Positions 7,868 through 53,400 of a stretch of 64,000 nt of DNA are shown here, piece after piece (within the stretch, counting starts at the first letter, position 1; each line of letters opens with the position of its first letter). Origin of the DNA: Antedon bifida. Its lineage: Eukaryota; Echinodermata; Crinoidea; Comatulida; Antedonidae. Both the position numbers and the translations under genes were made by a program. The stretch lies in NCBI GenBank assembly GCA_963402885.1, contig OY727102.1:4030001-4094000 (forward strand), read 5' to 3'. A model generated the notes under the pieces. The model was not told the origin of the DNA and did no database searches. It saw nothing but the letters and a program-made list of their open reading frames with translations.

Positions 7868-8050
7868 TAACTCAATTCAAGAAACATTTATTGACCATAT
7901 TATAGCATAACATTAACAATGGTTGGCATATAATATATATATAGTCGAGAGACTACAAAATGCCCGATGGGCCTGTCGCTGTAGTCCCTCTTTACATTAT
8001 ACAAGTATACAACAAATAATAAAATACAACACTTAAGCTACTTAACATGG
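7868..8050 (-). mobile_element. Possible LINE 3' tail (minus strand)
   Basis: On the minus strand a GC-containing inverted motif (GACTACAGCGACAGGCCCAT, then GGGCATTTTGTAGTC) is followed by an AT run and AATAAA, ending near TTGAATTGA. This looks like the 3' tail of a non-LTR element. Alternatively the AATAAA at about 7886-7891 is the PKS polyadenylation signal. Confidence 0.25.
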
Positions 8051-8635: not shown

Positions 8636-11600
8636 TTACTGGAATGTAGCTTTAAGAACTTTTTGAATATCTCGGAAAAAAGATTTCTTTCTTACATGCA
8701 TGTGACCTCCGGGCACCATTATTTTTTTGAAATGCTGATTTTCATCAATTTCATGACACCATGCATCTAATGAGTTGGGAGGAATGCACCGATCCGACTT
8801 GGCACCAAACACAGTCATGCCGCATTGAAGTTTTGTACTTTGTGTGTAATTGTACTTTTGGCAAATTTTAAAGCCAGCATTGAAGCAAGGGATAAGTCGT
8901 CTCATCAATTCAGGATTTCCCAACACGTCCTCATCAACAAAAGAAAGCGTCTCAGATTTGCTGTTGATTACTGGGATGTTGTTGTTGATATTTTGTTCAA
9001 TTTGCCTTAATATAACTGGGCCTTTTGAAAGCTCTATTGTGTTAGGATAGTCAAGCGTGGGTGCATACCAAGAACTAGTGATCATATGAGCCGGCTGTAA
9101 ACCCATAGTTTTTAGAAGGTGAGCAACCTCAAATGCGATGAGTCCACCAATACTATGACCAAACAATATAAACCTGCCTGGCAAAAGTCGTGGTGCTAGG
9201 TTCTCCGTTAATTTACTCACAATTTCTTCAAGATTTTGAAGAGGTTTCTCATTATGACGTCCTTCCCATCCGGGTAATTGTGCCATGATTAACTGCACAT
9301 TATTCTTACTCAGTTTTTCCTGCCACCATGCATATGCAGATGGACCTCCTCCATTTGGTGGAAAACAAATTAGCTGGATATTAGGAGACATAGTCATACC
9401 ATCCATTATATACCAAGCCTTCCAAGTCATGTCTTCCTCACTTTCTTCTTCACTGTTTGGTTGACCTCTCACTTCATTCTTATCCAGTATTTTTCTGTAT
9501 ATTGAAACGGACAAACTGTGCATTGTCGCGTTTGCATTAATCAATTCCATAGATGGAAATGGAACATGAAATGTTCTTTGGATGTCTCCGCTCAATTCAG
9601 TTGCAGTCAATGAATCTACTCCGAGTGAAGATGGTGAGGAGTTTGGAGAAATATCGCTAGTTAAGCCAACACGTTTGGAGATGAAACTGCAGAGTTGCTG
9701 GAAAATATAATCTTTAGCTTCATCTGGTTGTAAGTTAATTATGTCACCTGCGTTCTCATTTTGACCCACTGATCTTGTAGAAGAAAATCCTAGCATAATT
9801 GAACTTTCTTCATAGTCGTGGCGTTTAAGAATGCCTCGGTATTCCATAATAACATCATTAATTCGAAGATTTCCAGTTACACCAATGTCAGAGGTATTTC
9901 TACTAAGCATTACATCAAGTGAATTTAACACCTGCTGTGATGTCACACTTCCTATTCCTCTTCTTTCCCAAAACTCAATAATACCCGATGTTCTTGCTGC
10001 AAATCCAGTGTCTCTAATCACACCCGGACAGACGACAGTTGCAGGTAAACCTTGGTTTCTACGATACTGACCAAGAGATGAAAGGTATGTATTAGCAGCA
10101 CAATAATTTGCCTGACCTGCGTTTCCTACCATCTGAACTACAGAAGAAATCATTACAAAGTATTCCAGTTGAACATTAAACTTAATTGACGTTTGATGTA
10201 GTAGAAGAGCACCCCATGATTTGGTTGACATTATTGTCTTCCAGCTATCAGGTGTAATGCTCTCAATTAGCTTATCATCATACTGTGCAGCACAGTGGAA
10301 TATTCCTGTTAAAGGTTTAGACATATCTTTTAAAACAGTAGCAAATGCGTTTTCTATATCTGATCTGTTCGTAATGTCTGTCCTAATATGTACTATTTGG
10401 ATTCCTCGATTTGTAAGACTTCTTAATCTTTCTTCTGTTTCAAAACCTGGCACAGATCGACTTAAGATAGCAACGTATCCAGCTCCATTATCTACCAACC
10501 ACTCTACAAGACGAAGTCCAAATCCAGTTGTACCACCAGTTACAATATAAGAATTGCGCATGCTTAATCTAGTCTCTTTCCCTGAAAAGTCGTAGTTTAC
10601 ATTAACGGATTCGTTTTTTTCTACTGAGAATATAACATCATCAAATACATACTGATTTTGGATGTTTACTTCTTTAAGTAGCTTGATATGTGGACTCTTT
10701 ATATAATTCTTTCTTAAGGGTTCCTTAAAGAGATTCAATAAGGAGTTGAAAGTAGGCTTCATCTTGTGAAACTGACAAAGCAATGGTAATGTGTAGCTGT
10801 TGACCACAACCCTTACATTTCTAGGAAGACCAAGGTTATCAGTAACTGGAATGTCTTCCTTAGACTTCAGTATTTCAACTTTAGCAAACGTTGTCAATCT
10901 GTCTTTTAATCCTTCATTAACCTTTAATAATTCGCTTATGCACTGTTTATATCCTATCACACCGCCAACACTGTGTCCATTTAAGACAGACATTACATCT
11001 TTACTTTCAATGAATCTCGGAAAGGCATCTGAAACCAAACTATACTCCTCGGGAAGGTGTTTAATTACAATCAAAACATTGTGACCCATTTTTTCAGCCA
11101 CGTGTGCAACAGCTAAGCACTGTTTATCCTCAGTAGAATCTAGGCAAACAATCGTCGTACCATCTGGTTTCAGGTCACGAACAGTAAGAAACGGAACAGT
11201 GTATGACGAGACAATATCAATTACTTGTGAAGGTGAAAAGTTTGTCTCTAGCTCTAACAGTTCATTTTTGTTGCACTGTATTGTAGACTTCATTTCGTTT
11301 GAAGAACAAACACCAATCACCAAAGAAGACTTTTCTGAATTTCCACAAAACATTACAATCGGCTTTACCTCTTGAGAAGAACCTTGAGCTTCTGATGAAA
11401 CCAGTTGGAAGGATTCAATGTTTACTGTTACCAATTTGACAGAGTTGGTCTCTTCTTTGTTATAAAGGAACTTTGTCAGCAACAGTCTTCCAGTTTCAAA
11501 ACTTTGAAGAATGTTAAATTTCCAATTAGATGACGAATGATTACAAGGAAAGTAATAACTATCACGTATACACAACTGATACACATACACCTTGAAATCT

Positions 11601-14600
11601 GTTGTTTGTTCAGGTGACGACTCATTCATACGTAATGCTATAATTATCTTATCATTGTCACTGCCCCAGATGTATTTCAATAACCAATCCGCCGTTGTAA
11701 TATTGCTGATTTCTGATGGAATATCCAAAATGGAGAGCTTGAAGTCTAGATTTTCGTGTGCCGCACAAATACCAAAACCATAAGCTGAAGCCTGGCATGG
11801 ATCAACTACGTCATCATGTCTGACATAAAACCCATCTCGTGTAATCAGCCATATTTTCGGATCTATATTTTTCTGGGTTGAAACAGCTTTATAGAGATTG
11901 ATACACATTTCTGCAATACTAGATTGCAGTTCCAAAAATGTTGTCTTGGGAAGTTGGTCGTGATTTTTTTGGTCACTTGGTTTAACCGTGATTATAATAT
12001 TTAACAATGGTTCATTACCACCCATAGTTAATTGCTCTTCTTGAAAATCACTTCCATTGTAAATACCAGACTGAAGTCCAGCTGAAGTCAAGTGGTTCTG
12101 GAGATTTAACGACAACTCTTCGTCATTTCCTGTTATTAGGGTATAACCTGTTGGATCGAATGATTTCATTCCCATGTCGATTGGCACCCATTCCTTATTC
12201 CATATTTTAATGATGTTGTCTTCATTACGACCAGCAACTGATCCAAAACGGATTTTTGAAAATTGACCAATGATCTCAAAAGTTTCTGCATTAGCAACAT
12301 AAACTTCGCCATAAATGTCTGCTTCACCATCGCTCATTAATTTAAAATGAAGATATACACTGTCCGGAAATAATACGTCTTTTTTAAGGTACATTCTTTC
12401 AATAGATCTGGGAACACGACCATCGGGCTTTGATGTGGGATTTTGAACTGTATTTTTTAGACGTTCAAGGCCTGCCATAGCTTGCAAGATACCATCTAGC
12501 AAAGCGGGATGGATGTAGAATCGACTGGACTGTGCAGCAACAGTTTCAGGTGCTCTGATATAAAAAAGTGCTTCGTCAGCCAGTCTGTTGTGGTTTACCA
12601 TTTCGATACACATGAAACTTTCACCAAGATTGAAACCAACTTGCTGTTTGAAGGCATAAAAACCAGTTTGATCGAGTTCTTCGGGACATCTATTTTTTAT
12701 GTCGCTTACAGGAAGGTACGTCAAATTAGTCAGACATGTATCATGGATAGAACAAACGTGTGTTTCATTTTTTATTAATTTCATAGTTGTATGTGTTGTC
12801 CATTTATTTTCTCTTGTATTGAGTGAGCAAAATCTGAATGATGCGGTGTCTTCAGTTTCCAATTCGGTTGTTGTTTCAACGGTTGTGTCTTCATCAGAAA
12901 CAAACATAAAACGGTCGAAACGCATATCTTTTATAATTACGTGAGGTGAATTCAAAAACACTTTCTGATGCGCTGCTATTGCTGTTTCTACAAATCCTGC
13001 AGCCGGAAACACTACACTACCTTGAACCACGTGATCGGCAATCCATGGTTCCTCGTGGGTTCCAATAGTTCCTTTCCAAACCTGAAAACCTTTGTTTGAG
13101 GAAAAGTTAGCTGATGTGTCTGGTTTTCCTAAAAGGGGATGAAAAGAATTTGGATACCGCATGATAACGTTCCTTGAGGAAGTGGCTGCTGAACACTCTA
13201 TACGTTGCCATGGATACAATGGTAAGGATTCTACCTCACACTCAGATCCTAGAAAACTTGGTGTCATATCAACCGGATAGCCCCGTATAAACATCTGTGC
13301 TAATGATATATTAAAGTTGAGATTATCATTGGAAGAGTTATTAATATCACGTGGTCGTTTAAGAGAATGAGTGATAAAGTGAACGGTTGATTTGCTCGAC
13401 TTCGATGCTACAATTTCTTTAATTGCTGGTGACAGCGCTGGATGAGCTCCTATCTCTAAAAAGCTAATGTAACCGTCCCTTAGTATGGCATCTACTGCAT
13501 CTCTGAAACACACTTTCTGGCGAATATTACTCCACCAGTAAGCAGGATCATTCGCCTCTTGTAGAGTAACATAACGGTTAGTTACAGTTGACATCATTGG
13601 AACAACTGGTCTATGGTTAGTGGAAAACGTTTTCTTCTTTAGAAAATTTGTCTTCTTCAGAAATTCTTCCCTTAAACCTTCTTGGTGACGACTGTGAAAC
13701 GCATTATTAACCCTTAGTAATTTTGTCGCAATACCATCTTCATTCAGCTGTGATGTGAATTCATTAATTAACTCTGTTTTCCCTGACAATACAATTTGCG
13801 TAGGGCTGTTTATAGCTGCGACGTCTATACATCTGGGATTAAACTCCAGCTTACTTTTGACAATATCTACATCATGAAGAACTGCAGCCATTGTTCCAGA
13901 ACCACTTGTTTTTCTGAGAAGATGTCCACGTTTAAAGATTACCTTAACTGCATTTTTCATAGAAAGGAGTCCCGCTGCGTAAGCTGCTGCTACTTCTCCG
14001 ACGCTGTGACCGATTATGGCACTTGGAGTTACTCCATAATGCTTGTAGAGTTCGACTAATCCAATTTGGACGCTACAAATGCAGACTTGAGAAATTTCTG
14101 TTGAAGACAATGCAACAATATACAAATTAAAACTTGTTAAATTTTAAAGTTCAAACGACAGTGGATAAACTAGGTTGGCTTTTGATTAATAGTATTGACA
14201 CTGGTATTGCAGTAACATCGTAAGAGTAGTCTATATTATGTACTTTAGCAAATAATAATATATTTAAACACAATTTTCTTCTTCTTTCATGATCTTTCTT
14301 TCACTGTTTGTTAGAATGTGCATAAATCATTATAGATTTCATCGATTAACTTAATTATGCAATTTCATTCTGCGTTTGAACATTAGCAATACTGTACTAC
14401 AATGATTATTTTAACTTAAAAATTGTGTAAACCCGTATCGTTGCTTATCCTGTTTTTATCAGTTTCTTCTGTCAACATCTGAATTAGCGACCATCTTCCT
14501 CCAATTTGTCCAAGGTAACTGTCAATCCTCTATTTTTAAACAAAGAAGTGTTTTTAAATATTATCAATCAGTAATGTACTATAATGATTTTAAAAGTGAT

Positions 14601-17600
14601 ATTTTAGTTTTGTTCAACGTGTCATACTGTTAATTACCTGTATGACTTTTTTGAAGATCGGTTGTGTGTTCATTAACTCTCTAGCCATGCCCCACCACTG
14701 AGTTCCCATGCCAGAAAAAACAAAAACTAGTCTCATGATAACATTACCCTCTGGTGCCTTTCCTTCGATTATAGTATCTACATTTTCTCCGTTTAAGTTT
14801 CTTTGCAGTAAATTCACAAATTCCTCTCTGGTCTTGGCTAAAATAACTGCTCTAAAAACATGATTATGTGTTCTCACATTTGTAGTGTATAACGTATTTT
14901 TTAGAGAAACCGAACTTTGTGAAATAAAGTTCCCATAGTCGATAAACTTTTGCTTAAGAGCTTCTGATGTCGATGCTGAAAGTATTAACATATTTAATTT
15001 CTCGGAATTTGATGAATTACCATTCGTGATCTCGCAATGATTTTGCATTGTAGATGGCGCTGCTTCAAAAACAACATGTGCGTTAGCACCGCCGAATCCA
15101 AACGAACTGCAACCTGCGATATATTTTTAATCAGCAGGCCAAGGGATGCTTGTTGAAGGAACGGTCATTTTGAGGTCTTCAAAATTAATGCTTGGGTTAC
15201 CGCGTTGGAAATGTACAACACCAGGAATTTCACGATGATACAGTAACAATGCTGTTTTAATAACGCCTGCTATTCCAGCAGCACCTTCTGCGTGTCCTAC
15301 ATTTGATTTTACAGAACCAATATACAAAGGTGGTGTATCATCCGAACGTTGTTTGCTCATAGCTTCACCGATGGCGTTAGCTTCAGTCTTGTCGCCTACC
15401 CTAGTACCTGTACCATGAGCTTCGATGTAAACAACTTCACGTGGGTCTACTTTCGCTGCTGAACATGCTTTGTGCACAAGATCAATCTGAGCATCAAAAC
15501 TTGGGTTTGCAATACCTGGCGTCCGTCCGTCATTTGTTAGAGCGCCACCCCTTATTACTGCGTAAATTCGATCATTATCTGCTATTGCTCTTTTAAGTGG
15601 CTTTAGAAGTACTGATCCTACACCTTCACTTCGGCTGTAACCGTCAGCTGACTCATCAAAACTTTTACACTGGCCATCAGGAGAAAGCATACCAGCTTGA
15701 CAAAACCCAATTGTAACAGATGGTGTAAGTATGATATTTACCCCACCAGCAATTGCTGTATCACAGACGCCTCCTCTTAGAGCATCACATGCAACCTGTA
15801 CAGCATAGAGAGATGACGAACAAGCAGTGTCGATTGAAAAACTTGGTCCTCTGAAGTCAAATTCGTACGAAATACGATTGGATATCATGCAAGAGTTGGT
15901 TCCTGAATTTGTGTATTGACCGATGTTACTAAATGGTAAGCCGGTTAGGGCCAAATACTCATTAGCCGTTACTCCCATATACACACCAGTGTTAGAGCCA
16001 CGAAGTGTAGAAGCAGGAATACCAGCATCTTCAATCGATTCCCAGACAACTTCAAGAAGAATCCGTATCTGTGGATCCATGTGTTCAGCTTCACCTACAC
16101 AATAATTACATTGTAAGTTAGTGATTAATTATAAATGATTTAATTCATTTTATATTACACAATTCTTTCATAGCAGATTATGATTTCGCTTTATTTTTTT
16201 TATAATAAATTTCAAGCTACACGGCCACGACAAGTAACAAAAAAGCATGACACAGTTTCAAAGCTACTAATTTGTTCAGCTATTAAGGACTTATACCAAG
16301 TTGTTCAAACAGGTTTCTACAAGCCGTTGGCGGAATGTTATTGATTCAAGGTTGAGGACGTCTTCGATGTTAATAGTTGACGACAATTCGAAATGTCTCA
16401 CTTTAGTCCAAACCAATTGTTAATATACAATTTTGGGGTATTTATCAATTTTTTGTTTAAACTACCAACTAACATATTTTATTGATATTTCCAATGTTAA
16501 TATAATATATACAATAAATTACTAAAAATGTGTAATTTTATATGCAACTATTATTTCGAAAAAGTTTTTTTCGTGAATGTAATATGTTGTCTTTTTGTTG
16601 TGTTTTAAGTATGTTTATAATATTTAACAGTGTCTGTAATAAAGAAGGTTTTATTCACATTACCCCTTTCATATAATAAGTTACTTAATCACAATTCTTC
16701 AATCAATTTTCATTTAAATAAAAAAAACACTTTAAAACCATTTTAACGCATTTATTAAATTATTAATTATTTTGTTGATTGGTATGTATAGTTTAATGTT
16801 GTAACTTTTATAGTTACTACTGTGCCAATCGTTTTATGCTGTAATTAATTAATTAAAAATGTTACTGTTTAAGGCATCCTGTAACTGAAAAATATTTTTA
16901 AAAAAATCAAGAATTGTGTTCGCCGACAAATGCTATGGCTTAACGCCGACTGGCTAAATGGTTATATAAAACCGCTATTACACTAGGAGGCCGCATTCGA
17001 TCGGACATGGAGCCCTATCAAACATTGATTTAGCTATAGCGTAATCACAACGTACGAACAATTTTCAAAATACGCTGACCAACTGTACGTACGCACACGC
17101 CGGGGCATGCTGACGTAAGTACATGAGTGTGGAGACATACTCAACTATACAAAATAATGCATTTGTACAATGATAATGTCATGAGGTGAAAGATGAAAGG
17201 TTATATTTCTATGAGTGGAAATAGAACTTTTCATATTCACCGAATTAAATTAGTTGTACCATTTCACGAAAGACTGATCTCGCAATGATTTTCTGGGATG
17301 ATGTAGTATGCCATACACATAGCGTGGTCTAAGACCGTGTGCTCGCGTACCATCGGCCCAAGGTCATTAGGACGGCAAATTACAACATAAACATTTATTA
17401 AAAGCGTAGCTTACTTGGTGACATCCTGAAGAATTGTCGATCAAACATAAAAGGATCTTGCTTCAGGTAACCGCCACGTTCTGTGTACAATTTACTTTTC
17501 TTTTTATTACCAGGAAAAAAGAAAGATGATTTGTCAAATCGCTCTGCGGGATGAGATGTTGTACAGTCTCTCATCTCCTTCAACATGCGCCACATTTCCC

Positions 17601-17718
17601 GTGGACCTGCCACACCGTCTCCATATCTGCATCCAATGCCTACAATTGCAACCTTGTCATTGTCGTCTAGAGGATCGACGCACGAAGATGACGAATGTTT
17701 CATGTTTTTTCTACTCAT
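8636..17718 (-). CDS. Animal polyketide synthase, KS-AT-DH-(ER-like)-KR-ACP-TE, with an in-frame TAA
   Basis: Cytosolic multidomain enzyme that would build a polyketide from acyl and malonyl units. Exons: 17718-17415, 16094-14638, 14529-14433 and 14097-8636; the 97-base third exon restores the AT region. Phases agree throughout, giving 2,439 codons. KS (~20-450): Cys193 in DTACSSS, His328 in EAHGTGT, His369 in NVGHAEG. AT: GMGTQ 564-568, Ser651 in GHSVGE, His754. DH: His975 in DHVVQG, Asp1154 in LLDGILQ. A degenerate ER-like stretch spans ~1570-1705. KR: TGGTTGFG 1806-1813, Tyr1951. ACP: Ser2115 in LGVDSL. TE: Ser2268 in GHSIGG, Asp2388, His2418, resembling type II thioesterases. Codon 424 is TAA, so the gene is a null allele, a young pseudogene or misread. 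An in-frame TGA precedes the ATG. A 5' non-coding exon may end at 18335 (CATG|GTAAGT) and join at 17725. Confidence 0.93.
15127..15129 (-). pseudogene. In-frame TAA in the ketosynthase of the PKS
   Basis: Minus-strand codons read GAT TAA AAA TAT ATC GCA, between IPWPAD and KYIAGCSSFGFGGANAHV. Both sides are conserved KS sequence in the same frame, with no room for an intron. The stop falls at codon 424, after all three KS catalytic residues but before the end of the domain and every later domain. A single base change from CAA, GAA or AAA would create it. The context is not the known leaky UGA-CUA type. Confidence 0.85.
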
Positions 17719-19117
17719 GTTTACTCTTCAAAAAATGAATAAAGAAACGTAAAGGTAATAAAATATGACAAAAGTAGAAATTAAATTACCTCTAACCGGT
17801 TCGTTTGCAAACAGGATAAACATGGGCGCCGATAAAAGGGATTGGGGAGGGTGAAGGTTAGTTGTCCTAGGACATATTTCTCCTAGGGGGTAGTTAACCA
17901 CTTAAGAAACCAGATTGTTGAAAAGGTGAACGTTTAGCTGAGCTCTAGCGCTGCTTCTCAAAATTCTCATCAGACGTCGAAGATTAAAAAATGAAAAGGA
18001 AAAGCTTTATCATCAATAATCTATAAACCTGGTTTCCATTTAAGACGCAATACAAAGACGTACGTACAATTATGTAAGCGAGTTGATCATTGACAAGGCG
18101 CGACAGTATATAGAAAAGCATATTGCTGCTTGTGATTTTTCAAATAACTTGCAATGTGCTTACGTATATTATAAAGGGAACCAAGCTTTAGTTAGTTAAC
18201 TAATATATTTGGCTATCTTAGATTGGGCCGGGGCGCGCTATAAACACCATCAATAGGCCTACCTCTATTGTACATTACCTGGTAGTAAATATTAAATCGT
18301 TTAGTAAACTCAAAAACAAATATTAAAAACTTACCATGGTCTTATTCTTTTGGACAACTTTTCTTCTAAATAAATACAAAGTTAAACAACAGATACTTTT
18401 GTACTGTTGAGTAATGTTTTTGTCATCCGTCAGAACCAATACAAAATGCGACCGTGACCAATCAAACAAGCTAAATTTCTATCACGCTTTTAATTGCCAC
18501 ATCGTGACTAGAGAGGTGATCTTGACCAATGAAATAATGAAGCATAATGTTTGGTAAAACAAATCGGAAAATTCAAAAAGTTTGAGCTTATTTTCTTTGT
18601 TACGGTTACGAAATACGATATCAACACCCACAGCGGTAATGTTATACATGCTAAAGGTTGATTCGTACACACATTTAATTATTAGCCATGTTTTAAACCC
18701 TTATTTAGAAGGATCGGACGAAAATATAAAAAATATATTATAAAATAATAATTTGAACATAGAAGCCCAGGCATCGAGTTGTAGGCATATTACTAAGTGG
18801 CGATATAGATTGGTATCATCTCTTTAAAATGTCTATTTGAACACAATTTCAAGATAAACCATTTTAAACAAAAACATGGAATACTACTTTAATTATAAAA
18901 AAATACTACTTTTTTATAACCTTTATACAGTTGTTTTAGAATATTTGCAACGTGTTTCTTGTTGAAATATTATATTGTTCATTAAGGAAGTATAATGTAT
19001 AATATATATAAATTACAAATTGGTTACTCCCACAAAATAAAATCTACTGCAGATTTGTTGGACTTGATTTCAGGTCTGAGCTAATATAGAAATTAAAAGT
19101 AAGATTACTTTTTTATG
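17719..19117. other. PKS upstream region, no other gene seen
   Basis: Holds the presumed PKS promoter and possibly a 5' non-coding exon ending at 18335. The bases just before the ATG-bearing exon form a pyrimidine tract ending TTTTTTGAAG, a credible splice acceptor. A TAGGCCTA palindrome lies at about 18254. Nothing else is recognisable. Confidence 0.4.
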
Positions 19118-20000
19118 ATAAATGAATGTAATGTTAGGAGATTATTTTCCAAGGTAAAGATAAATGAGGGAATGGGACCAGATTGGGTCAGCAACAAGCT
19201 GTTGAAAACACGTGGCAGCAACTTGCATCTCTTAACTATTGTTCCAATTTTCTGCTGATAAATGTGAAATCTGGAAAACTGCTCATATTACTCCATTACT
19301 TAAGATTAGCAAAGTGTCTTGTTGCAATGACTATCGTCTTTGATTACTATACGACTATGAATTGCTTCGAACATTTTTAAAATTAAAATTGTTAAATACG
19401 TTATTGAATTAAAAATATATATAAGTGGAACCATTTGCGTATAGAAAGAGGAGGGTGTAGAAGATGATGGGACATACTACCTGCATAACGTAGGTATAAT
19501 AGAACATCTTGAAAGAAATCCAAAATGAATCATTATTAATAATGTAAGTGCAATTATTATTGACTTTTCCAGTACATTCAAGACAATTCAGCCGCAATTG
19601 ATAAGAAAGAAATAATTAAAGGTAAATAATAAAATCATATCATGGATACTAAACTTTCTGGAGGATCGTTCTCAATTTGTTAAAGCATGTAACCCACATG
19701 AATGTGTTCTCCCCCTGAACTGTTTTCATTGTATACAAGTGACTGTTAGTGTTAGCTCGAAATGTTAATACAGTGAAAATGCAGATGACATGGTCAAGTG
19801 TTTTCATAGGGTCTAATTAAATGACGAGGGTAGAAATGAAATAGCTAGTGCGATGAAATAGCTAGTGCGATGAAATAACTGGTGCAAAACAATTATCGTA
19901 ATATTAACATTAAAAAGACAGAACAAATTATGTTTTACTTTCGCAGAGGGAAACATAGAATTGATCCGATCACCATAAACAACACAAATGTAAAAAAAGT
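19118..20000 (+). mobile_element. Degenerate Rex1/Babar-like LINE, reverse transcriptase part
   Basis: Broken plus-strand frames give the order expected of a LINE reverse transcriptase: IWKTAHITPLLK then CCNDYRL, PFAYRKRR, IIIDFSSTFKTIQPQLI, ISWILNFLEDRSQFVKA, NADDMVKCF (decayed YADD motif) and KTEQIMFYFRR. Stops and frameshifts occur throughout, so this is an old dead copy. The DFSSxFxTI motif and the neighbouring endonuclease segment favour the Rex1/Babar group. Confidence 0.75.
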
Positions 20001-20041
20001 TAAAACTAAACTAAGTACCTACTGTATGCGGTGAAATATTT

Positions 20042-20815
20042 ATGTATGGTAACTGGACAGTTAAACAAAGATTTTGTACTCCAGATACCGAATTACTTAT
20101 CGTTGTAGGTTTGCGGCTCCATTATATTCCCAGGGATTTTAGCAACATTAATGTTAAATATACATCCAAAACGCCACAACTGAAGGACGAAATTATAAAA
20201 GAAGTAACTGTCTTGAGACAAAGTATCCCAATGCTAACATCTTATAATGATTATAAAGTGCATAATGCATTTTACTCTCCCTCGTATATGCAATATGATA
20301 AACCCACAAGAAACGACGCCATGTTGATGTTGCTATGAAAACTTCAACCAGCTGGAACGTAGTCGGTCATTTAATGATACCACTATGACTCCAACAGTGT
20401 ACATCACCTTTTGGGGTTACTCAATCGTGCCATCAAAAATGTTTTTTTAAGGGTCTTTAATGAATTAAAAAACATATTTAAATAAAAACGGCTTTCATGT
20501 ATGGCTACAAATAAAAGAATTGGGATTAACGATGAAGATAGAATTATGATAGATGAATGTAATGTTAAGTGATTATTTTCTAAGGTAAAGATAACAAATA
20601 AACGGAAACAGATGGGTTCAGCAACAGGCTGCACATATCTTTACTCGATTGTTCCAATACTATCTGTAGATAAAGGCAAAATAACAGCAAACTGCTCATA
20701 TTACCACCATTACCCAAGACTAGCGTGTCTTATTGCAATGAAAGTGGATAACAAAACTGTAAAGTTATTTTATCATGCTGTTGTACAGAGTATTTTAGCT
20801 ATTGGTTGATAAACA
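20042..20815 (+). mobile_element. Second LINE remnant: endonuclease end plus truncated RT
   Basis: The 98-codon open frame at 20042-20338 resembles the C-terminal half of a Rex1/Babar endonuclease: CTPDTELL, then a LR-Y-PRDFS block, and PTRND near the end. Downstream, 20530-20700 is a diverged duplicate of 19118-19330. The segment ends in LFYHAVVQSILAIG, a sequence from late in LINE reverse transcriptases, so the middle is deleted. Confidence 0.65.
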
Positions 20816-22540
20816 GGAATACAATTTGAAAAAAAAAAATAATAATAAAAGAAGCTTAAAAATGCATTGATATTAAAACTATTTATAATAAACTGTTTAA
20901 CTGCACAAAATGAAAACTATCATAAATGATAATGATACTCACCATTTCGTGATTGTTTTAATTTTAGTAATTTTGTTTTTGTTGTTGTATATATTATATA
21001 TTGTATATATTTATCGTATGCTAGTCAATCCGAGCGGTTACCGTACTTAAAGACCCAACAATATCGGATGGTAAAGCAATCATTTCTGACTCTGACATTT
21101 TTGAAAATGTGGCGAAAGGTCGTGGTGAAATATGGACATACACAAAGTATAGATGCGAAGGCCTCAAGAAGGAACCCATTTACCACTCCTTCCAACCAAT
21201 AGTTTGTTTGGGTTTAAAAACGCAATACCCAGGTTTCTCTATCGATATTTCTTGAAACACAAACTTGCATCATTGAAAGATTGGACAACAAAAATGTTTA
21301 AATAATTACATTATAGGGGGCCCTCTGTTTTCAAAGCAAAAACGTCTCAACATTAGGTCATATAGGGGGCCTCTGTTTTCGTTCTTAATATTACCTTATT
21401 ATAGGTAATATTAATAATATTATAGTAAAAGACCAATATTTTGGCACATATGGCATTTCATACGTATAATATTTGACCTATTTTTCCGACAAAAATCGAA
21501 ACGCTGACTGGTGGACAACATAAAAAAGACAAATAACCACTAACTGGGAAAAGTCTATTATAAAACTGTGTGTACTTAACAGATGTTATATAATACAGAA
21601 TTATATATATTATTACTTTTTGGTTAGATCTGTTGATGTAGATGATTTTCTGTGAATTAAATAAAAATCCTATAGTTCTACCTTGTTTGACCTTTTGACA
21701 ACAAAACTGAAGATGGCATCCACCCATATCGTTTTTGTCACCCCACAAAGCATACATTCAACATGGTTGCCTGCTATTAACAAAAAATGCCCCCAAACTA
21801 TAGAGTATGTATGTGTGTGTATTTGGCCTCTCTACTATATATATATATTTGACTCTACTCACGATACGGTGAGCGCCGAAGTTCTATAATGACGTCATAA
21901 AACTTTAGACGCAAAATCATCGGAGGAAATCATGATCGATCTTAATACGATCAGTAGACCTAATAGATTTTCACGATGAAGTAAGTTAGGATTACAGACA
22001 ACAAAATCCTGTTAGTGCGGTAAGTGCATTCTACTAATTAAGGCAACATTCGTAGATTTTGAAAGATTCACTCAGCTATACTCAGACGACTAGTGCAAAT
22101 AAACTATAGCCTACGTGGTTTTATTAAGCCAAGAAACTTGTATGTCATCAGAGGTACCGGTAGGCATATGTGACGTGGGGCAAAACGGGAAATTCAATTC
22201 ATAAGGTGTTCGTGACATATTTATGGATAGGCTATTTCAGGTTTTATTGTATGTCTAGCGAAGCCGAACCTATCAAGTTTATGTACGACCGGAAAATAAT
22301 CCTTAAAGTGAGCCGTCCAATGTGGTTCTCTCCGCGGTCAAATTCCGAGCGCCTTCGATATTCGGTTAGATGAAATCGGCGAATTAATTCAATAATAATA
22401 ATGAAAGCAGTTAGTTGATTAATAATGGATGATTAATTGTATTCGTGAACTTTAATTATTGAAAGCCGGACGAAAGAGAAGAATTGTGTATTTTGTTTGC
22501 AAGACACAATATACCCAGCGCAGAGGTTGTACACGGACTC
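20816..22540. other. Intergenic, no gene seen
   Basis: AT-rich. A short direct repeat (TAGGGGG followed by CCTCTGTTTTC) occurs at about 21316 and 21363. Open frames here have no supporting features. Confidence 0.4.
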
Positions 22541-23148: not shown

Positions 23149-24005
23149 ACCACCACAGGCACGTCCTTTATCAGTTGTTTTCGTAAACAAAAACATTATT
23201 CTTTTCTATATTTTGTCCTAAATCTTTTTTTATAATAAGGTTTCTCTGCAATATTTTTCTGTTAAAAAATGTAGAAAATATATTCCTTTTAGCCTAATTA
23301 TATTTTTAATTAAATACACGAACTAATTGTTGTATATAGAATTCTGCTTATATTAAGTGTTTTTTATTAGTTTCTTATTGATGTCCAAAATCAACAAAAA
23401 TGTGTTTTATGAGTTTACGAGAAAATCGATAATTTAATTTTGATTAGAGTAATTAAGTACAATTTTTATAACTTATGTTATTGAATATCAGAATAAAGAA
23501 CTCGCTTATTATTAAATTTATTTAATATTGCTTACTACCTGATATAGTCCGGTGGCAGGAGGGGGGAATCACCACCCGAAAGGGGACAAATTGCCATCCA
23601 ACTTTTCTAGACTAGAATTTTCCGTAGATTACGAATATGGAAGGTAATCGATCAGGATAGGAAGCGTTTTCGAGATATAAGGGGTCAAAGTTCAAAATTG
23701 ACCAATTATAACAATGTATTATGTATATGTATTATAACAAATTTATTGAAGCACACTTTGGTCTTTTATTACATTTTTATGATTATAAGTGTCTATTCAA
23801 TCACCTTATGAAAAAAAATCCTTTTTGATTAAGGGTCAAATGTCAATATTGACCAATCATAGAACGTACCTATAAAACCAAATAAAAACTAATATTTAAT
23901 AAAAATTGGATGTTTTCTCATCCTGTTAATCAATCATACGCAATGTAAAAGAGCGAATACATCATTTCATCAGTTGACATAAGGTCAATTTCATTAGTTG
24001 ACATA

Positions 24006-24018
24006 AGGTCAAAGGTCA
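24006..24018 (+). promoter_or_regulatory. Perfect DR1 nuclear-receptor-type site
   Basis: AGGTCA A AGGTCA matches the consensus direct repeat with one-base spacing bound by RXR, HNF4 and COUP-TF receptors. Two more perfect copies lie at 24533-24545 and 26595-26607, and a one-mismatch copy at 26289-26301, all inside the 3.36 kb element. Whether they bind anything is unknown; they may simply be repeat-family sequence. Confidence 0.4.
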
Positions 24019-24959
24019 ACATTTTAATACGCGTATTAGTTAACAAATAAATGCAAAGTTGTCCAAACTATGATATTGATGGTTTTACAAGTAATCAAAT
24101 TATTTGATTAGTAAAGTTATGTTATTTCATTATAATTTTGATTAATATAATTATAATACTGTATTTAATCAAATCAGACTTCGATCAGGATAGGAAGCGA
24201 ATAGGAAGAGATAAGGGGTCAAAGTTCAAAATTGACCAATTATAACAATTTATTATATACATATGTATTATAACCAATTTATTAAAGTTCAATTTGGTCT
24301 TTTAATACATTTGTATGGTTATAGGTATTGTATGGTGTTATTCAGTCGCCTTATAAAACAAATACTTTGCAATTGAAGGTCAAATGTCAATATTGACCAA
24401 TCACACAATTTGCATTTAAAACCAAATAAAAACTAACATTTAAGACAAAATGTTATGTTTTATCATTCTGTTAAGACATCTATCAATCATACACAATCAA
24501 AAGAGCACATTTATCATTACACAAGTTGACATAGGTCAAAGGTCAACATTTGAACAAATGATATACTAAATAATGCAAAGTTATTCAAACTATGAGATCG
24601 ATGTTCATAAATGTAATCACGTTATTTGATCAGTGAAGTTATGGTATTTTTATATTTTTTCTAGTGCGCATTATAAATACTGTAAAATAAATAATAAAAT
24701 TAATATTATGACGATTAAAATGTTATGATATTAAAATGTTGCGCTGACCTTCAATGATTTGCCACTATACAGTTGCATTTATTAGGGCTACAATATTCGT
24801 TTTTGGAAAATAAACTACTATTCATCAGAACCAGAGAATAGGACATAGGCAGATCCAGGTGGCCAAACTCAATCCACAACTCACTACACAGACAGACCAC
24901 AATTTTTATATAGCCACAGATAGTTTGGCCCATACAGGAAAGAGTTTCCTGTACACAAA

Positions 24960-26010
24960 GGATTCTAAAATAACCCATATGGATTTGCCCGAATGAACCC
25001 TCTAAGGACCCTTTTGGGATCTCTATGTGGTGTGCTACATAAGGCCCTGTATTAGAAATTAATATGGGGTAAAGATGAACTATGGAATAAAACTAAATGT
25101 GCACCCTCAATCTTTAAACAACATTTATGAATGAACCCTCTAAGGACCCTTTTGGGATCTCTATGTGGTGTGCTACATAAGGCCCTGTATTAGAAATTAA
25201 TATGGGGTAAAGATGAACTATGGAATAAAACTAAATGTGCACCCTCAATCTTTAAATAACATTTATGGATTTGCCCAAATGAACCCAAGGGCCGATCCTT
25301 CATGGACCTTTCGGGGTTCTCTATGTGGGGCTACAAGAGACACTATATTGGAAATAATGTATGTGGGGTGAAAATGTGGGTTCATAAAGATATAATAAAT
25401 ATCCCTGTACACCCTCGATCATCCATAAGGAACATTTTATGGATTTGCCCAAATTACCCCAAGGGCCGGTCGTTCTCCATGGATGGACATTAAGCCCCAT
25501 AATGGAAATATAATGGGTGACACTGTGGGTTCATAATGGACAGGCAGGGCCCATGGAATAAAGCTGCCTTGCATTTTCGATCCTTAAGGAACACTTATGG
25601 ATTTGCCCAAATTAACCCAAGGGCCGGTCATCCATGGACATTAAGCCTCATAATGGATAAGGAGTGACAATGTGGGTTTATATAGACAGGCACATGGAAT
25701 AAAGCTGCCTGTGCACTCTCGATCCTTAAGGAACCGATTTGGATTTTGCCTAAAATTAAACAACAGCAGGTCATCTATTTAGACCCTTCTGTGGTTCTCT
25801 ACTGTAATTTCAGTTCTACATTTGGCCCCTGTATCAGATCAATGCATTTGGCTACATAAGTTACTGTGTTAGAAATATATCGGGTAACTAAAACTGTAGG
25901 TTCCAATATTAAGCCATGGGAAAAGCCTGTCTGTGCACCCTCAATCCTTTTAAAAGGAACCCATATGGATTTGCCAAAATGAACCAAGGGTAACTTCTGA
26001 ATTCTCTATG
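24960..26010. repeat. Satellite-like array of diverged ~138-175 bp units
   Basis: Two nearly identical 138 bp units start at about 24993 and 25131 (TGAACCCTCTAAGGACCC...). Four or five more diverged units follow. Each carries ATGGATTTGCCCAAAT, GGGCCGGTC-like and CACCCTCGATC-like blocks. The array lies in the middle of the large inverted-repeat element. Confidence 0.75.
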
Positions 26011-27770
26011 AGCCGTACATTCCATTTATTGGAGATACATGGATACCTGATTGAAATTGCTCAAATATTTCTGAAAGACATTGTACTGTATAGTAATAGT
26101 ATTATTCCCCTTCCACACCTCTTTGAATTAAATCCGCCCTGATAGGCTCTTATGTACAGGAATTCAAAGCAATAATCACACTTGTATTTTTCAAACAGTA
26201 TAATCTATTAGATTGAATAAAAATATCTATTATAAACAATTTGCCGTTAGAAATCTCTATGCCATGTCGTTATTTAGATGAGAAAAACAGGTCAAAGGTT
26301 AAAATTACAGAAAAATAGGTGTTTCAGTAACTTTTTGAAAAAAATGTTGCATTATGGCAAGTATAAACATATATATTGTGAACAATTTGATACCAACATT
26401 GGCTCCTTACGACAAATATTTATTAATTTATGTTTTTATAACCTTATTCAATTATGTCAAAAATTAATAACCACACTTTCGGTCATTTTCAAGCAATATC
26501 ATCTGTTACACTGAATATAAATGTATATCTTGGGAACAATTTGCTCCTATTTTTAATTCTCTCCGACCTGCCGTTACTTAGATATAGCAAAAAGAGGTCA
26601 AAGGTCAACATTGCTAACAATGGGGTTTCCGGTCAATTTTACAAAGAAATTTCTGTTAGAGCTAATATAAAAATATACATTGTGAACAATTTGACATCAA
26701 AATTATCTCACTACGTCCAGAATTTCCAGAGATATAGCATGTTTTTATATTGGTCAATTTTGAACTTTGACCCCTTATATCTCGAAAACGCTTCCTATCC
26801 TGATCGATTACCTTCCATATTCGTAATCTGCGGAAAATTCTGGTCTAGAAAAGTTGGATGGCAATTTGTCCCCTTTCGGGTGGTGATATCCCCCCTCCTG
26901 CCACCGGACTAATATAGAGTTTTTTTAATATCATTATGTTCATATTTAAAAGCGGTTGACTACAAATATGGACCTATTTCATTAAAAAGTACTAAAAAAT
27001 AAAAGGATTTTCTTCATACTTCGGTTAATCAATCAATCAAAAAAAAGAAATATTTTTGGAAAAAAATTACGTGTGATGTTTTCCCAAAAAAACTAGCAAA
27101 TGTTACCATTTTGGCACGTGAATTTTGCCCTTAATTAGATATGGCACCTACGAAAAACGAAAAAGAATTTGTGAATTGTTTTTGTAATATTTATCGTGGG
27201 TAATCAAGTAATTTGTGTGTAGTGTTTCTAGATAAATGGTTGAAATTTACATTTTCTAGTTATTTGTAATAATACAGATATAGGTGGTATAGCTTTTTTC
27301 AGTACAAAAAAATGGCAAACATTTTTTTAAACATAAATATGCGCTGCGTATATAGATATTCCAATATCTATCCTGAGTTGTCTATTAGTAATTCCTAATA
27401 TTCATAACACAAAATGGCTGCCATTTGAAAACTTGTTCAATTATCTCTTTAACCACTAAGTATTTTGTATAAGAATGTATTAAACATAAATGTAAACATG
27501 ATAACAAATATAATTTTGCCTATGGAGTCTAGGTCAAAAAATCACTTTGAATAATAATCCCGCCCAACCCATCTATCTAATAAACGCCCATCCACGTTTA
27601 TACACACAATATTGTATTATATTTATAATAACACAATTATACTATTTGTAGTAGTTCATCGCACTGTTATCTATAATTTACCAATCATTTGTTATTCTTT
27701 TTTACCACTTTTCATATCTACTATAGGATTTTATTTGATAATAAATGTTACCATATTATTAAAAACTAAA

Positions 27771-28216: not shown

Positions 28217-30496
28217 ATGGAGTTGAACTTTATATTTATCGTCCTTTCCCTATTGGTACAACTGGTAAAATGTGAGTATTCATTTTTCGGCTGAATATTA
28301 TTAAATATTTATCGGACAGAACAATAATATAATAATAATAAAGTCGACGTTCCTTATTGTTGGACAGCGCGTAAACAATAAGATGAGGAAATTGGGCGAT
28401 CAATATATTTCTGAGGTTGAAAGCTATAAATATCTTGGTACTTACATGTCAAGAAATATTTAAGGTCATTTTCACATCGACCAAATCATTAATAAAGGCA
28501 ATAGAGTCATTGCTTATATTAAGTCAATTATAGACCGATTTGATAATTTTAGTAGAATTTTCTATGGTGACATTCTATGGAAAACAATTGCTCTTCCTAC
28601 AATAGCCTAAATTATGCTTGTTCAGTGTGGGTCAGCCAAAGCAGGAAAGATATTGATAAAATTGAGTCACTTCAATTACAAATGGCGCGGTACATTTTAA
28701 AAGCTATTAGAAGTACACCTAAAGAGGCCTTGTATGGGGATTTAGGATGGGTTCCAATTAACGTTATTCAAGATATATCTAGAGCCAAATTTATTAATTA
28801 TGTAATGAACATGGATAAACACTGTTGGCCTAACTTTATCCTTAATACGTGTCTAAGTTTCATTAAAATGTTTTAATCTGCCGACTGATTGACAAAGTGA
28901 CAACGTGCAACTCTCATGCACGTTGTCACTTTCTATTCATATCCCATATCCAGTATTGCGCTTTCATCCCATTCAAATTATTATGGTAGACAAGACGGTG
29001 CGGAGCACGGGTTACTGCTATAGACCACAATTTAATTACAGAAGTAGCAAATACCGGTAGCTAACACATCTCCCGCACAAAAAAATTGTAAAAAACCAAA
29101 ACAATTGAAATAAAAATAAAATGTAAATGATACCTAAACAACGAACATGGCACTGTTTAAAATATCGATGAAACTAATCCGGTATGTAATTTATCATTAC
29201 TATTACTTTATTTAAAGGTCGTACATTCTGGTATAATTGTTCGCAGTACACTATTACTTTACTCGGCCAGCAGAACCTAACTTGGTTGGATGTGAAGGCT
29301 ACATGCGAGTCATCTTGTGGCTACCTTGCAAGCTTCACAACGACGACCGATGAGGTAAGCGCCGTTCTTAACCACGTGAATCACCACGAACCAGGACGGT
29401 ACGCAATCGGGTTATCTCGTCAACCAGGCCTGGACAGGGACATCGGTGCCAACTGGAAGTGGGAAACAGGGGAAGCATTTGATTCTTCTATTCCTTGGTT
29501 TGTGTCGAGCTGGACGGAGCCAAATGAACCACCATCAACACATTGCGGAATTAGAATTGACTCGACAGTTAGTCAATTACTTGACCTGAGTTCCACTTCA
29601 AACTTAAATAGTCAAACGACGGGCTACATTTGTGAACGCAGTAAGTTCAAGATTCTATGACGAATATTCTGTACCGTCTAATCAAATTTAATTTTATGAC
29701 ATTCAAAATATAAACACAATAAAATATAGGTCAATAAAAAATAAATAAAAGGGACCTAATGTTGGACCTAAGCTCTGGAGTGTTATCTCACAAGAGTTAA
29801 AAAGAACATGTACAGTCTCTAGTTTTAAATACAATTACAAAAAGCTTTTAGTTTCTGAATATAATAAATAATTAATTTTATTTTTTTTCGTTTGAACTTG
29901 AACTGTACTTAAATACTATACTACTACTATTATTACTTATGAAAATGCTAAAGTTTCAACACTTATGATTCATTTATTTAATAACTTATACTATTGTTTT
30001 TTTTTTTATTTATTTACTTTTTAATTTTTTATTTTACTTACTTACTTTTGTATTTTTACTTCTTATTTTATATTCTTACTATGTATATCTTACTCGTCAT
30101 ACTTGATTATGTTTATGTATCTTTTCTGGTGGGTAAGCCTTAAAGTTCTTTGAACTTGTTTGCCCACCAGCCACACATCTTTCTTGTATATATATATATG
30201 TTTATTGTTACTTAATTATCATATTCATTTTGTGTGGAAAATCAATAAAAACAAACAAACAAAATATGCAAGATAATTGTTTAACAATTCTTCTATTTAT
30301 TGCAGAACGGAAAACCTGTGGATTTTTCCGATATAATAATGGACTTAGAATTCCCCTTGACGCTGCTTACTTCAGATGCGCAAAGTTATGCTTACGACAA
30401 TGTTATTGCATCGGAGTTCATCTTCACGACGGCTGCCATTTTGTAACCGAATTGAATGAAGCCACAACACTTTTAAAATTAATTAAAATAGATTAA
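28217..30496 (+). CDS. Secreted C-type lectin-like protein with Cys-rich C-terminus
   Basis: Exons 28217-28271, 29218-29640 and 30306-30496 join in phase 1 at both introns (GTGAGT and GTAAGT donors), giving 222 residues. Residues 1-18 are a hydrophobic signal peptide. The second exon encodes a C-type lectin-like domain: CRTFWYNC, TWLDVKATCE, GYLASF, IGLSR, WKWETGEAF, the EPN motif in SSWTEPNEPP, HCGIRID, and GYICER at the end. EPN is a calcium and mannose-type sugar motif, but the usual WND partner and the cysteine before GYICE are absent, so calcium-dependent binding is doubtful. The last ~60 residues are cysteine-rich (CAKLCLRQCYC) and may be a small PAN/apple-like module, an inference. LINE remnants sit in both introns. 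Such proteins usually act in innate recognition or extracellular matrix. Confidence 0.8.
28335..28878 (+). mobile_element. LINE remnant (C-terminal RT region) in intron 1 of the lectin-like gene
   Basis: Translation gives VESYKYLGTYMSRN, then an ACSVWVSQSRKDIDKIESLQ stretch, and TPKEALYGDLGWVPI. This is the post-catalytic region of non-LTR reverse transcriptases (YLG block, then a YxxxVWG-like block). Stop codons and a frameshift show that it is dead. It is from a different family than the Rex1-like copies at 19-20.8 kb. Confidence 0.75.
29735..30262 (+). mobile_element. LINE 3' end in intron 2 of the lectin-like gene
   Basis: PKLWSVISQELKRTCTVSSF and then YKKLL before a stop form the classic end of a LINE ORF2. 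An AT-rich 3' region follows, with a hairpin (GGTGGGTAAGCCT with GCCCACCAGCC), AATAAA and a final AAACAAACAAACAAAA tail. Together with 28335-28878 this could be one insertion interrupted by exon-bearing DNA, but two insertions are more likely. Confidence 0.7.
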
Positions 30497-50400: not shown

Positions 50401-53400
50401 TCTGGTATCTTAGCAACATTCTGTAAAAGCCTTAGTAAATCTCGACCAATCCTACAACATACTGAGAACTTAAAAAAGAGAAAAATAAATATGTTTTACT
50501 TCTACATTTTGCAAATAATTTAAATCTATAACTAAAATTAGAATACTTTGACAGTGTATCATTTTTTAAAATGATGTCATCATAGTAACAAAATATGATT
50601 CATTGCGGTATGTAATAATCTATATGCACCAAAGTGGTTAGCATACTAAATACACACTTTTAGTCAGTGTATGGCTCGGTGGTCTGTGCTCGCGTCTATA
50701 GCATTCCAGCTACCGAGATCGAGTCTCACCTTGAGAAACGAAACAAAATAATATTTTTTTTATATCTGTATTGTTTGTTCAATTTTATTTGTATACAGTA
50801 GATTATACGCATGATTTATAATGAAAAAATAAAAAAAAAGTAACTCTTTATTATTTATTAACAACAAGGGTGGATTATACGCGAGGGGATCTTTGACCGG
50901 ATTGTGATACCGGCTATTTGTTTTTGCATTAGCAAGATCCTATCTTTCATATATTGTAAATAATTAAAGATTCTGACAAAATCAACGAGCTAATTGTTAC
51001 ACAAATTTGTACAAAGAGATGTAAAGAAGAAGAATAAAGATTTCATACAATAACAATAGCTGATCATCTAAATGATCACCTAATTAATCACAAGTTGTAC
51101 ATGAGATAAATATGTATTCTTAAATAATTATTAACTAATCAAAGAGGCGATTTAAAAAGCATGAACTCTTTAACAATTGAAGTTTGATTACACCTCAGAT
51201 TCGAGATTGATTGACTTTGTTTTGTGATGTGTCTCCCAAGAGGAAACCATGGGCCAATCAACGGCCTAACACAGAAGTGGGTACCTCTGTTGAAATAAAA
51301 ATAAAACAGTGCCATCTTAACCTGCCATGCTTACCTTTGACCTGAGGAGTGAAATACAGAAATCAACCTCTCTCTGTTTGAGTGGTACCAGCATTGCACT
51401 ACTGTGGTCCTCAATAATTCTTAAATATGTATACAATGCCATATTTGTCAACACTGGGTACTTTTCTAACCATGACCTTAATGAAGATAAATACAGTTAA
51501 TAATAATTCAGAACATACAGAACCAAGCTCACTTCATAGAGTTTTCATTGTGATGCAATGCTAAGCAGGTTGGCCTATGAACTTATTTTATTATAGCACA
51601 ATCTTGTTCTGCTTTAAAATAGGGCATGGCTGGTTAGGGTTGATGCTTCTACAGTAGTAGGATGGTGTGTCAGTCCCTGCTTTGACTGACCACTTTTCGC
51701 ATGTCAGTATGTCAAAATTATACAATGCATACAAAGTGCAATAACGTGTTTATTATACAAAATAAATACATTTATTGGTCACATTTTTAAGGTAAAGAAT
51801 GTATCCGAATATGTTTCATGGAATATTCATTTTTACTGGAAAAATTGACGGAAAGAAAAGTAAATGGCAACAAAAGTCCAATGATTGCTAAAGACCAGTG
51901 ATTATCTATTGTAGATATTTTCAGAACTGCAGCTAATCAGATGACCATAATAAGTAAACGAAAGGACATGAAGATAATTTTATTATACCAAATATTTAGT
52001 ACAAAATCAACTTACTTGTTTTCTGTAAATATATCCAAAAGATTCTCAGCTAGCCATACATTCTTTGCAGTTACATCACCACCTACAAAATATTTAAAAG
52101 TTTAAAACAGAATGACCCAGCTGAAGACAGTTTTGGTTGAACACAACATAACCTGTATCCATAAACAGTATTTTGTTTTTCGAGAAGCAGTCACTTTTGC
52201 ATGTCTTTTTTGTTTTAGTCTTAGTAGCTATTTTCCGAGTCTCAACCTAAGCTCAAGGCTTACATTGCCGGTACCAAAATGGTCTCCTCTATTACTCTTT
52301 AAAGCTCTGTCTACACTATCAAATTTTATGTGACAACAAAATTTGATATGCCCATATATGGATACGATGAATGATGTCATATCACAACCATATTTGGGCA
52401 TATCACTACCATATTGGGGCACATCACACCCGAATATGGTAGTGTAGACAGAGCTTAAGTCGCTCTTATCTTAACCAAAACACCCTGTAAATATATTACT
52501 TGATTGAGTCACAGACAGGCACAGATTTGAAATAGATTGGTGGAAGATGGCGACAAATCAAATGCATTGCCTCTTAGCTTTTTGTTTGGTATATCTTTAG
52601 ATTGAGCATGGACCTATTTTATAGGTCCATGGATTGAGTACATGATTGTGTAAATAGTATTACTATCATCTATTTATTTACCAGCTATTTGTTTAATCAA
52701 TGAAGAACAAACGTTATCAATTCCATTGACCCCATTATTGACCATTTCTTTGGTGTACCAGACAACTTGCGTCCTTGAAGACTCTATCAGCTTAGGATAC
52801 CTTTCAATGATGATCTGATTTAATCTGGACCATGCAGTAGCCATGCCATCACGGGAAACAAGTGTTAAATCACGGTATGACTGAAAAGATTATGAAAAGA
52901 AATTTAATAAATATAAATGAATGAAAAAAGTCAAAAATGTATCATTGATGACCACACATTTCATTATTCATGTCTGTCATCTGATTCATGGGTGAATTTC
53001 AGGGGTAAGTTAAAGCTCATCTCATCTGTTTCAGGGATAAGTTCATCTCATCTGTTTCAGGGGTGAGTTCATCTCATCTGTTTCAGGGGTGAGTTCATCT
53101 CATCTGTTTCAGTGATGAATTCATCTCATCTGTTTCAGGGGTGGGTTCATCTCATCTGTTTCAGGGATGAGTTCATCTCATCTGTTTCAGGGATGAATTC
53201 ATCTCATCTGTTTCAGGGGTGAGTTCATCTCATCTGTTTCAGGGGTGAGTTCATCTCATCTGTTTCAGGGATGAGTTCATCTCATCTGTTTCAGGGGTGA
53301 GTTCATCTCATCTGTTTCAGGGGTGAGTTCATCTCATCTGTTTCAGTGATGAATTCATCTCATCTGTTTCAGGGGTGGGTTCATCTCATCTGTTTCAGGG

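Follow-up and report, generated by a model that had tools for sequence, protein, structure and literature searches.

A polyketide synthase gene of Antedon bifida shares a premature stop codon with a decayed sister copy and appears to have evolved under constraint since the two separated

The DNA analysed here is a stretch of 64,000 nucleotides from the crinoid Antedon bifida (the window; C15:4030001-4094000 in a searched genome of 315.6 Mb on 27 contigs) carrying a polyketide synthase (PKS) gene, W, whose long reading frame is interrupted by one TAA codon; the same TAA is present in P, a decayed pseudogene on another contig. Contig C27 of this genome is mitochondrial and bears COX1; set by eye against echinoderm sequences, its COX1 and ND1 translate sensibly under code 9 (AAA=N, AGR=S, TGA=W), in keeping with an echinoderm source. 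Comparison of the two indicates that the coding sequence of W has been under purifying selection after the split, while P decayed freely. A silencing stop inherited by both copies is contradicted by this pattern, since W would then have decayed too; because W kept evolving like a working gene, either the stop arrived there recently or the gene works despite it. We lean, tentatively, towards the former, in which the stop would have reached W recently by a short ectopic gene conversion from P or by repeat mutation. The weights given to the explanations below are matters of judgement, driven by the presumed rarity of functional stops.

W is a minus-strand gene of four exons and 2,439 codons plus the final stop (Table 1); its introns, placed by homology and by eye, are of the GT...AG type and span 1320, 108 and 335 bases. 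The sole internal stop in this frame is the TAA at codon 424 (minus strand 15129-15127), and the four-exon model thereby confirms the single in-frame stop in a 2,439-codon PKS that had been reported in the initial annotation. The two accompanying claims hold as well: ketosynthase (KS) blocks continue across the stop, as the translation reads ...STSIPWPAD, then the stop, then KYIAGCSSFGFGGANAHVV..., with KS sequence in the same frame on either side, and the rest of the frame is uninterrupted, with no frame lesion in W other than the disabling TAA. A Pfam scan, in which the pre-stop and post-stop pieces were run apart and exon 1 was left out, gives the domain order KS, KS C-terminal extension, AT, DH, KR, ACP and thioesterase, the last (PF00975, 8.4e-29) in the terminal part of exon 4; no separate enoylreductase is found by Pfam between DH and KR. 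The catalytic motifs of KS, AT, DH, KR, ACP and thioesterase look intact by eye when set against their usual forms. Read as one DNA frame, W would qualify as a type I PKS, with KS, AT and ACP in one chain. A chance open frame is of no concern, since exon 4 by itself stays open over about 1,820 codons and the TAA recurs at a second locus, C9:10.18 Mb.

Table 1. Coordinates of gene W, of the stop codon and of related features (positions in the window).
Feature	Position	Strand	Remarks
W exon 1	17415..17718	-	start codon plus N-terminal ketosynthase segment (codons 1-102, the final one split); copies A and B each have a counterpart
W exon 2	14638..16094	-	remaining ketosynthase, KS-AT linker, start of AT
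W exon 3	14433..14529	-	97 bases, AT
W exon 4	8636..14097	-	remaining AT, DH, KR, ACP, thioesterase, stop codon
Domains in W exon 4	DH 13141-12284, KR 10552-10016, ACP 9697-9524, thioesterase 9376-8660	-	Pfam, positions converted
In-frame TAA, codon 424	15127..15129	-	common to W and P; sense codon in the other 9 of 11 KS places
Codon 427, L to I	15118..15120	-	amino-acid change nearest to the stop that is common to W and P relative to A and B
Stretch identical in W and P, 35 bases	15100..15134	-	maximal recent conversion tract unless P changed later
Part of W alignable to pseudogene P	10960..15180	-	post-stop exon parts: 13 frame-breaking indels and 9 stop-making changes in P, 0 in W
Upstream DNA	19113..20986	-	common only to the P locus (C9:10184370-10186583) among the matches listed, the best 40 of 1,418 candidates
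Upstream stretch	18299..18580	-	79% like intact copy A

A DNA search with exon 2 finds W itself and, on C9, copies A (95%), B (95%) and P (95% and 92%, in two pieces); more distant copies are found on C9 and C10. A and B have 86-95% DNA identity to W. Copy A retains a complete frame of 2,434 codons without a stop; copy B (C9:10234501-10244500) has lost one base near the start of exon 2, at the counterpart of window position 16014, and four bases at its very end, while its exon 4 is open, and both lesions are its own relative to W and A. These two are the exceptions among the indels in exons 2-4 between W and A or B, which are otherwise all multiples of three. With a post-stop branch dN/dS of 0.28 and almost no damage, B is either very recently broken or affected by an assembly error. 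P, at C9:10.18 Mb, has many indels and no exon 1, and the final 2.3 kb of the gene is not found near it; it sits in an array on C9 that is home to most of the PKS family. Among 11 KS places (a subset, W and P included, of the 13 into which 24 KS matches were grouped), only W and P have TAA at the codon-424 site; the other nine have sense codons, six of which are serine. Use of TAA as a nuclear sense codon is not supported, as TAA terminates both W and copy A.

A tree with copy C as outgroup, built from 2,876 columns (only those with all five sequences present and good local W-P identity), groups W with P and A with B, each with an ultrafast bootstrap of 100. Derived sites number 77 in W+P and 52 in A+B, with 41 unresolved and 2 + 2 conflicting, and over the aligned gene no other informative pattern comes close in frequency to the split of W,P from A,B. 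W and P are thus sisters that share the stop; they differ at 192 of 4,075 sites (4.7%). Since the W and P loci have upstream DNA in common, the two arose by segmental duplication between C9 and C15, and C9 to C15 is the likelier direction because the C9 array holds P and most of the family. The dS of the W+P stem is 0.016 in KS codons 103-423 and 0.116 in later codons, which suggests an older exchange among the copies in the KS region; the P counts for codons 103-423 include badly aligned edges.

Downstream of the gene, the likeness between W, A and B ends within a few bases of the final stop codon (window 8635-8350), though the introns still align; by eye, the 3' side of W has a seeming insert before a short stretch that resembles the 3' region of A. 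Past the 3' end lies a dispersed repeat of about 177 bases (7869-8045), found at 85-93% identity in at least 34 other places among the best 40 of 125 candidates. Elsewhere in the window, a DNA element some 3.4 kb long and bounded by inverted ends of roughly 170 bases (23543-26916) recurs as long copies on numerous contigs, most of them 85-99% identical among the best 33 of 3,484 candidates, and looks like a recently active TIR transposon. An open frame at 29190-29657 has a C-type lectin domain (Pfam 4e-06), and a tandem array of 26-base units at 53017-55565 comprises about 98 copies that are 93% alike and show strong strand skew.

The dN/dS of the codons after 424, to which the initial annotation had looked as a measure, was compared here with that of the in-genome copies. 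In an ML analysis of 1,147 of the 2,015 post-stop codons (P stops and poorly aligned P codons excluded), dN/dS is 0.29 for W, 0.81 for P and 0.32 for the other branches, and the neutral branch lengths of W and P are alike (0.087 and 0.099). The value for W is significantly lower than 1 (2dlnL 13.1), that for P tested against 1 gives 2dlnL 0.68, and equality of the two is rejected (2dlnL 5.87); a coarse profile (3.89 at 0.15, 2.76 at 0.5 and 4.83 at 0.6) sets 95% limits of about 0.15-0.55 for W. Over the 1,195 codons of 425-2439 that can be aligned to P, nonsynonymous and synonymous changes number 24/19 in W, 40/28 in A, 35/35 in B and 87/29 in P, where there are also 9 stops, each a single change that would create a stop in the codon of W; the contrast between W and P has a Fisher p of 0.011 with stops counted as nonsynonymous (24:19 vs 96:29) and of 0.031 with stops left out (87:29). 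The post-stop exon parts of P contain 16 indels, 13 of them frame-breaking, whereas W has none that is frame-breaking relative to A; the chance of all 22 lesions (13 indels and 9 stops) landing on P is about 1e-6.

The introns serve as a control of 418 bases. With B as outgroup, they have 17 changes in W and 10 in P, whereas the exons have 44 and 107 (Fisher p = 0.0016); when agreement of A and B is required, the W:P counts are 9:6 in introns and 40:103 in exons. As the introns changed about equally and the exons unequally, the exons of W were protected, not merely slow-mutating. The 95% upper bound on the unprotected share of the W branch is 17% for the shared region and 10% for the whole post-stop frame, bounds that treat the P lesion count as a fair neutral yardstick; protection of W would accordingly extend over no less than about 83-90% of its history after the split from P. 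Neutral evolution since the split does not fit the W branch as a whole, although its last 10-17% could be neutral, and the earlier argument, that a long-dead gene would be more heavily damaged, is upheld, with P now putting a number to it. Before the stop, the KS of W has 3 nonsynonymous and 20 synonymous changes relative to A and B in 320 codons, a count that includes pre-split time; the 3 amino-acid changes of W relative to A and B fall in 729 sites. A relaxed first exon in W was also considered and set aside, as the counts over the 88 codons compared show no clear relaxation (W N4 S8, A N3 S4, B N2 S7).

In the tentatively favoured reading, P in the C9 array died and decayed and carries the same TAA, from which a short tract including the TAA would have been copied recently into W through interlocus (ectopic) gene conversion; recurrent mutation of that site in W is a much less likely means of entry. 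W would then be freshly silenced and perhaps still polymorphic. A paralogous donor with the same lesion does exist in P, and since W and P differ at 15135 (6 bases before the stop) and at 15099 (28 after it), the tract would measure at most 35 bases unless P changed later. A second amino-acid change common to W and P, three codons past the stop in an otherwise very strict KS, lends mild support to a co-copied tract. A review gives its own estimate of the mean conversion tract, on the order of 10-100 bases, and mean tracts of 200-300 bases from yeast and rodent experiments (PMC3924818); the experimental values exceed the 35 bases permitted in W. No conversion footprint is seen around the stop, where W-P divergence is 3.6% against an average of 4.7%, and the 35-base identical run is not unusual, 52% of identical sites being in runs of at least 35. 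Also counting against conversion, W and P sit on separate contigs at only about 95% identity; counting against recent arrival in either form, inheritance of the stop by both copies requires no coincidence. The chance of an independent identical mutation is roughly 1% (10 stops in P per 1,014 possible stop-making changes in W). PKS copies do seem to get lost, given the lesions of copy B in an otherwise constrained gene. A very recent knockout or a segregating null, as had been proposed for W, fits the absence of other damage, but either must now explain an identical stop in the older pseudogene P. That W died and was later mended through conversion by A or B is unlikely, as sites that set W+P apart from A,B occur in nearly all 250-base segments; they are dense in exon 4 and sparse in exon 2 (0-3 per segment), and there is one in segment 11350-11101.

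The main rival, less likely yet to be taken seriously, is that W and P both inherited an old stop from their common ancestor and that W is a "pseudo-pseudogene", which would function most simply through read-through of the TAA in whichever tissue needs the enzyme, or else through splicing. An old stop is the simplest reading of the tree, in which both sisters carry the TAA; it agrees with the lesion-free frame and the dN/dS of 0.29 of W since the split and with the absent conversion footprint, and the frame of W was conserved while the stop was present if the stop is shared by descent, not if it is recent. There is a precedent in IR75a of D. sechellia, whose premature stop is reported to be read through (PMC5615767). 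Read-through had been among the earlier suggestions, and it gains from the constraint on W and from the stop in sister P, but no special RNA fold is found 3' of the stop in W (z -0.01 and -0.05); the fold after this site is ordinary in intact copy A as well (z -0.45). TAA read-through is, moreover, usually inefficient in animals, and P went unprotected with the same TAA. That W is a read-through-dependent megasynthase, with the TAA in the W/P ancestor and a full-length working PKS long made from it, is likewise a less likely reading; we know of no animal megasynthase that depends on read-through, from a literature search that was not exhaustive, and a search for animal PKS with a pseudogene and a stop codon turned up only a mosquito fatty acid synthase. 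With regard to splicing, 279 in-frame GT...AG combinations of 60-600 bases span the stop and none stands out; an 87-base candidate intron picked by eye (15200-15114) is nothing special, its donor matching 5 of 9 consensus positions where the inferred introns of W score 7, 8 and 4, and it would remove a conserved part of the KS. Editing of the site, also suggested earlier, is rejected by reasoning, as A-to-I editing would have to convert both A of the TAA to give a sense codon.

Long-lived functional and null alleles at W, with the sequenced animal showing the null and P copied from it, would account for the common stop and for the absence of other damage if null haplotypes keep recombining with functional ones; certain marine invertebrates do have very high diversity. 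This is nevertheless improbable, as such a null would have to persist over 4.7% of W-P divergence in a gene under purifying selection, and the position of P in the C9 array makes C9 to C15 the likelier direction of copying. The explanations beyond recent arrival, function despite the stop and a long-lived null allele together carry only a small part of the weight. A base-call or assembly error, as the initial annotation had allowed, is very unlikely: there is one assembly only, and exon 2 of copy B likewise carries a single 1-base lesion, but P has the identical TAA and the neighbouring change on another contig, and reads from P would fit W poorly, with differences 6 bases before and 28 after the stop. 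The suggestion of a stand-alone ketosynthase of about 423 residues, whether or not another protein is initiated further along, is hardly credible, for although the three catalytic residues precede the stop in a strongly conserved part, the last KS strand, with the motif SSFGFGGANAH, falls after it, the counterpart in copy A aligns through that stretch to the solved KS chain 7zma_A, constraint on the 2,015 post-stop codons is that expected of a complete gene, and codons 425-447, a short stretch before any downstream start, contain no W-specific amino-acid change.

A conserved gene with the lesion of its sister pseudogene is a situation of a known kind. In CYP21A2/CYP21A1P, SBDS/SBDSP1 and VWF/VWFP1, gene conversion by a pseudogene has produced disease alleles in which, as in W, a conserved gene carries the exact lesion of its decayed sister; unlike these, W and P are on different contigs and 4.7% apart, a tract could not exceed about 35 bases, and divergence does not fall there. 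An ordinary duplicated pseudogene, such as P, also has a premature stop in a duplicated gene, but W has not been neutral since the split from P. The olfactory "pseudo-pseudogene" IR75a has, like W, a frame that is intact but for one premature stop (PMC5615767); it is a receptor, however, whereas W is a large multidomain enzyme for which read-through is putative and whose sister with the same stop decayed.

Among echinoderms, SpPks1 and CrPKS are pigment synthases described as animal type I PKS with KS, AT, DH, KR and ACP, domains that W also has (PMC11414698). SpPks1-type enzymes are said there to have no thioesterase, whereas W ends in one, so W is not of the SpPks1 type. Two more PKS/FAS-like genes, at C8:7.217 and 7.246 Mb, have open frames of 2,285 and 2,316 codons and are possibly the pigment-type PKS of the animal.

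The decayed sister with the same stop provides both a clock and a neutral yardstick within one genome, and "recently dead" and "alive despite the stop" thereby become separate, testable claims. Should the stop have moved, W and P would be a natural example of a pseudogene that silenced, across chromosomes, a sister that still worked; should it be old, annotation pipelines may be throwing out functional enzymes when they reject a gene for a single stop.
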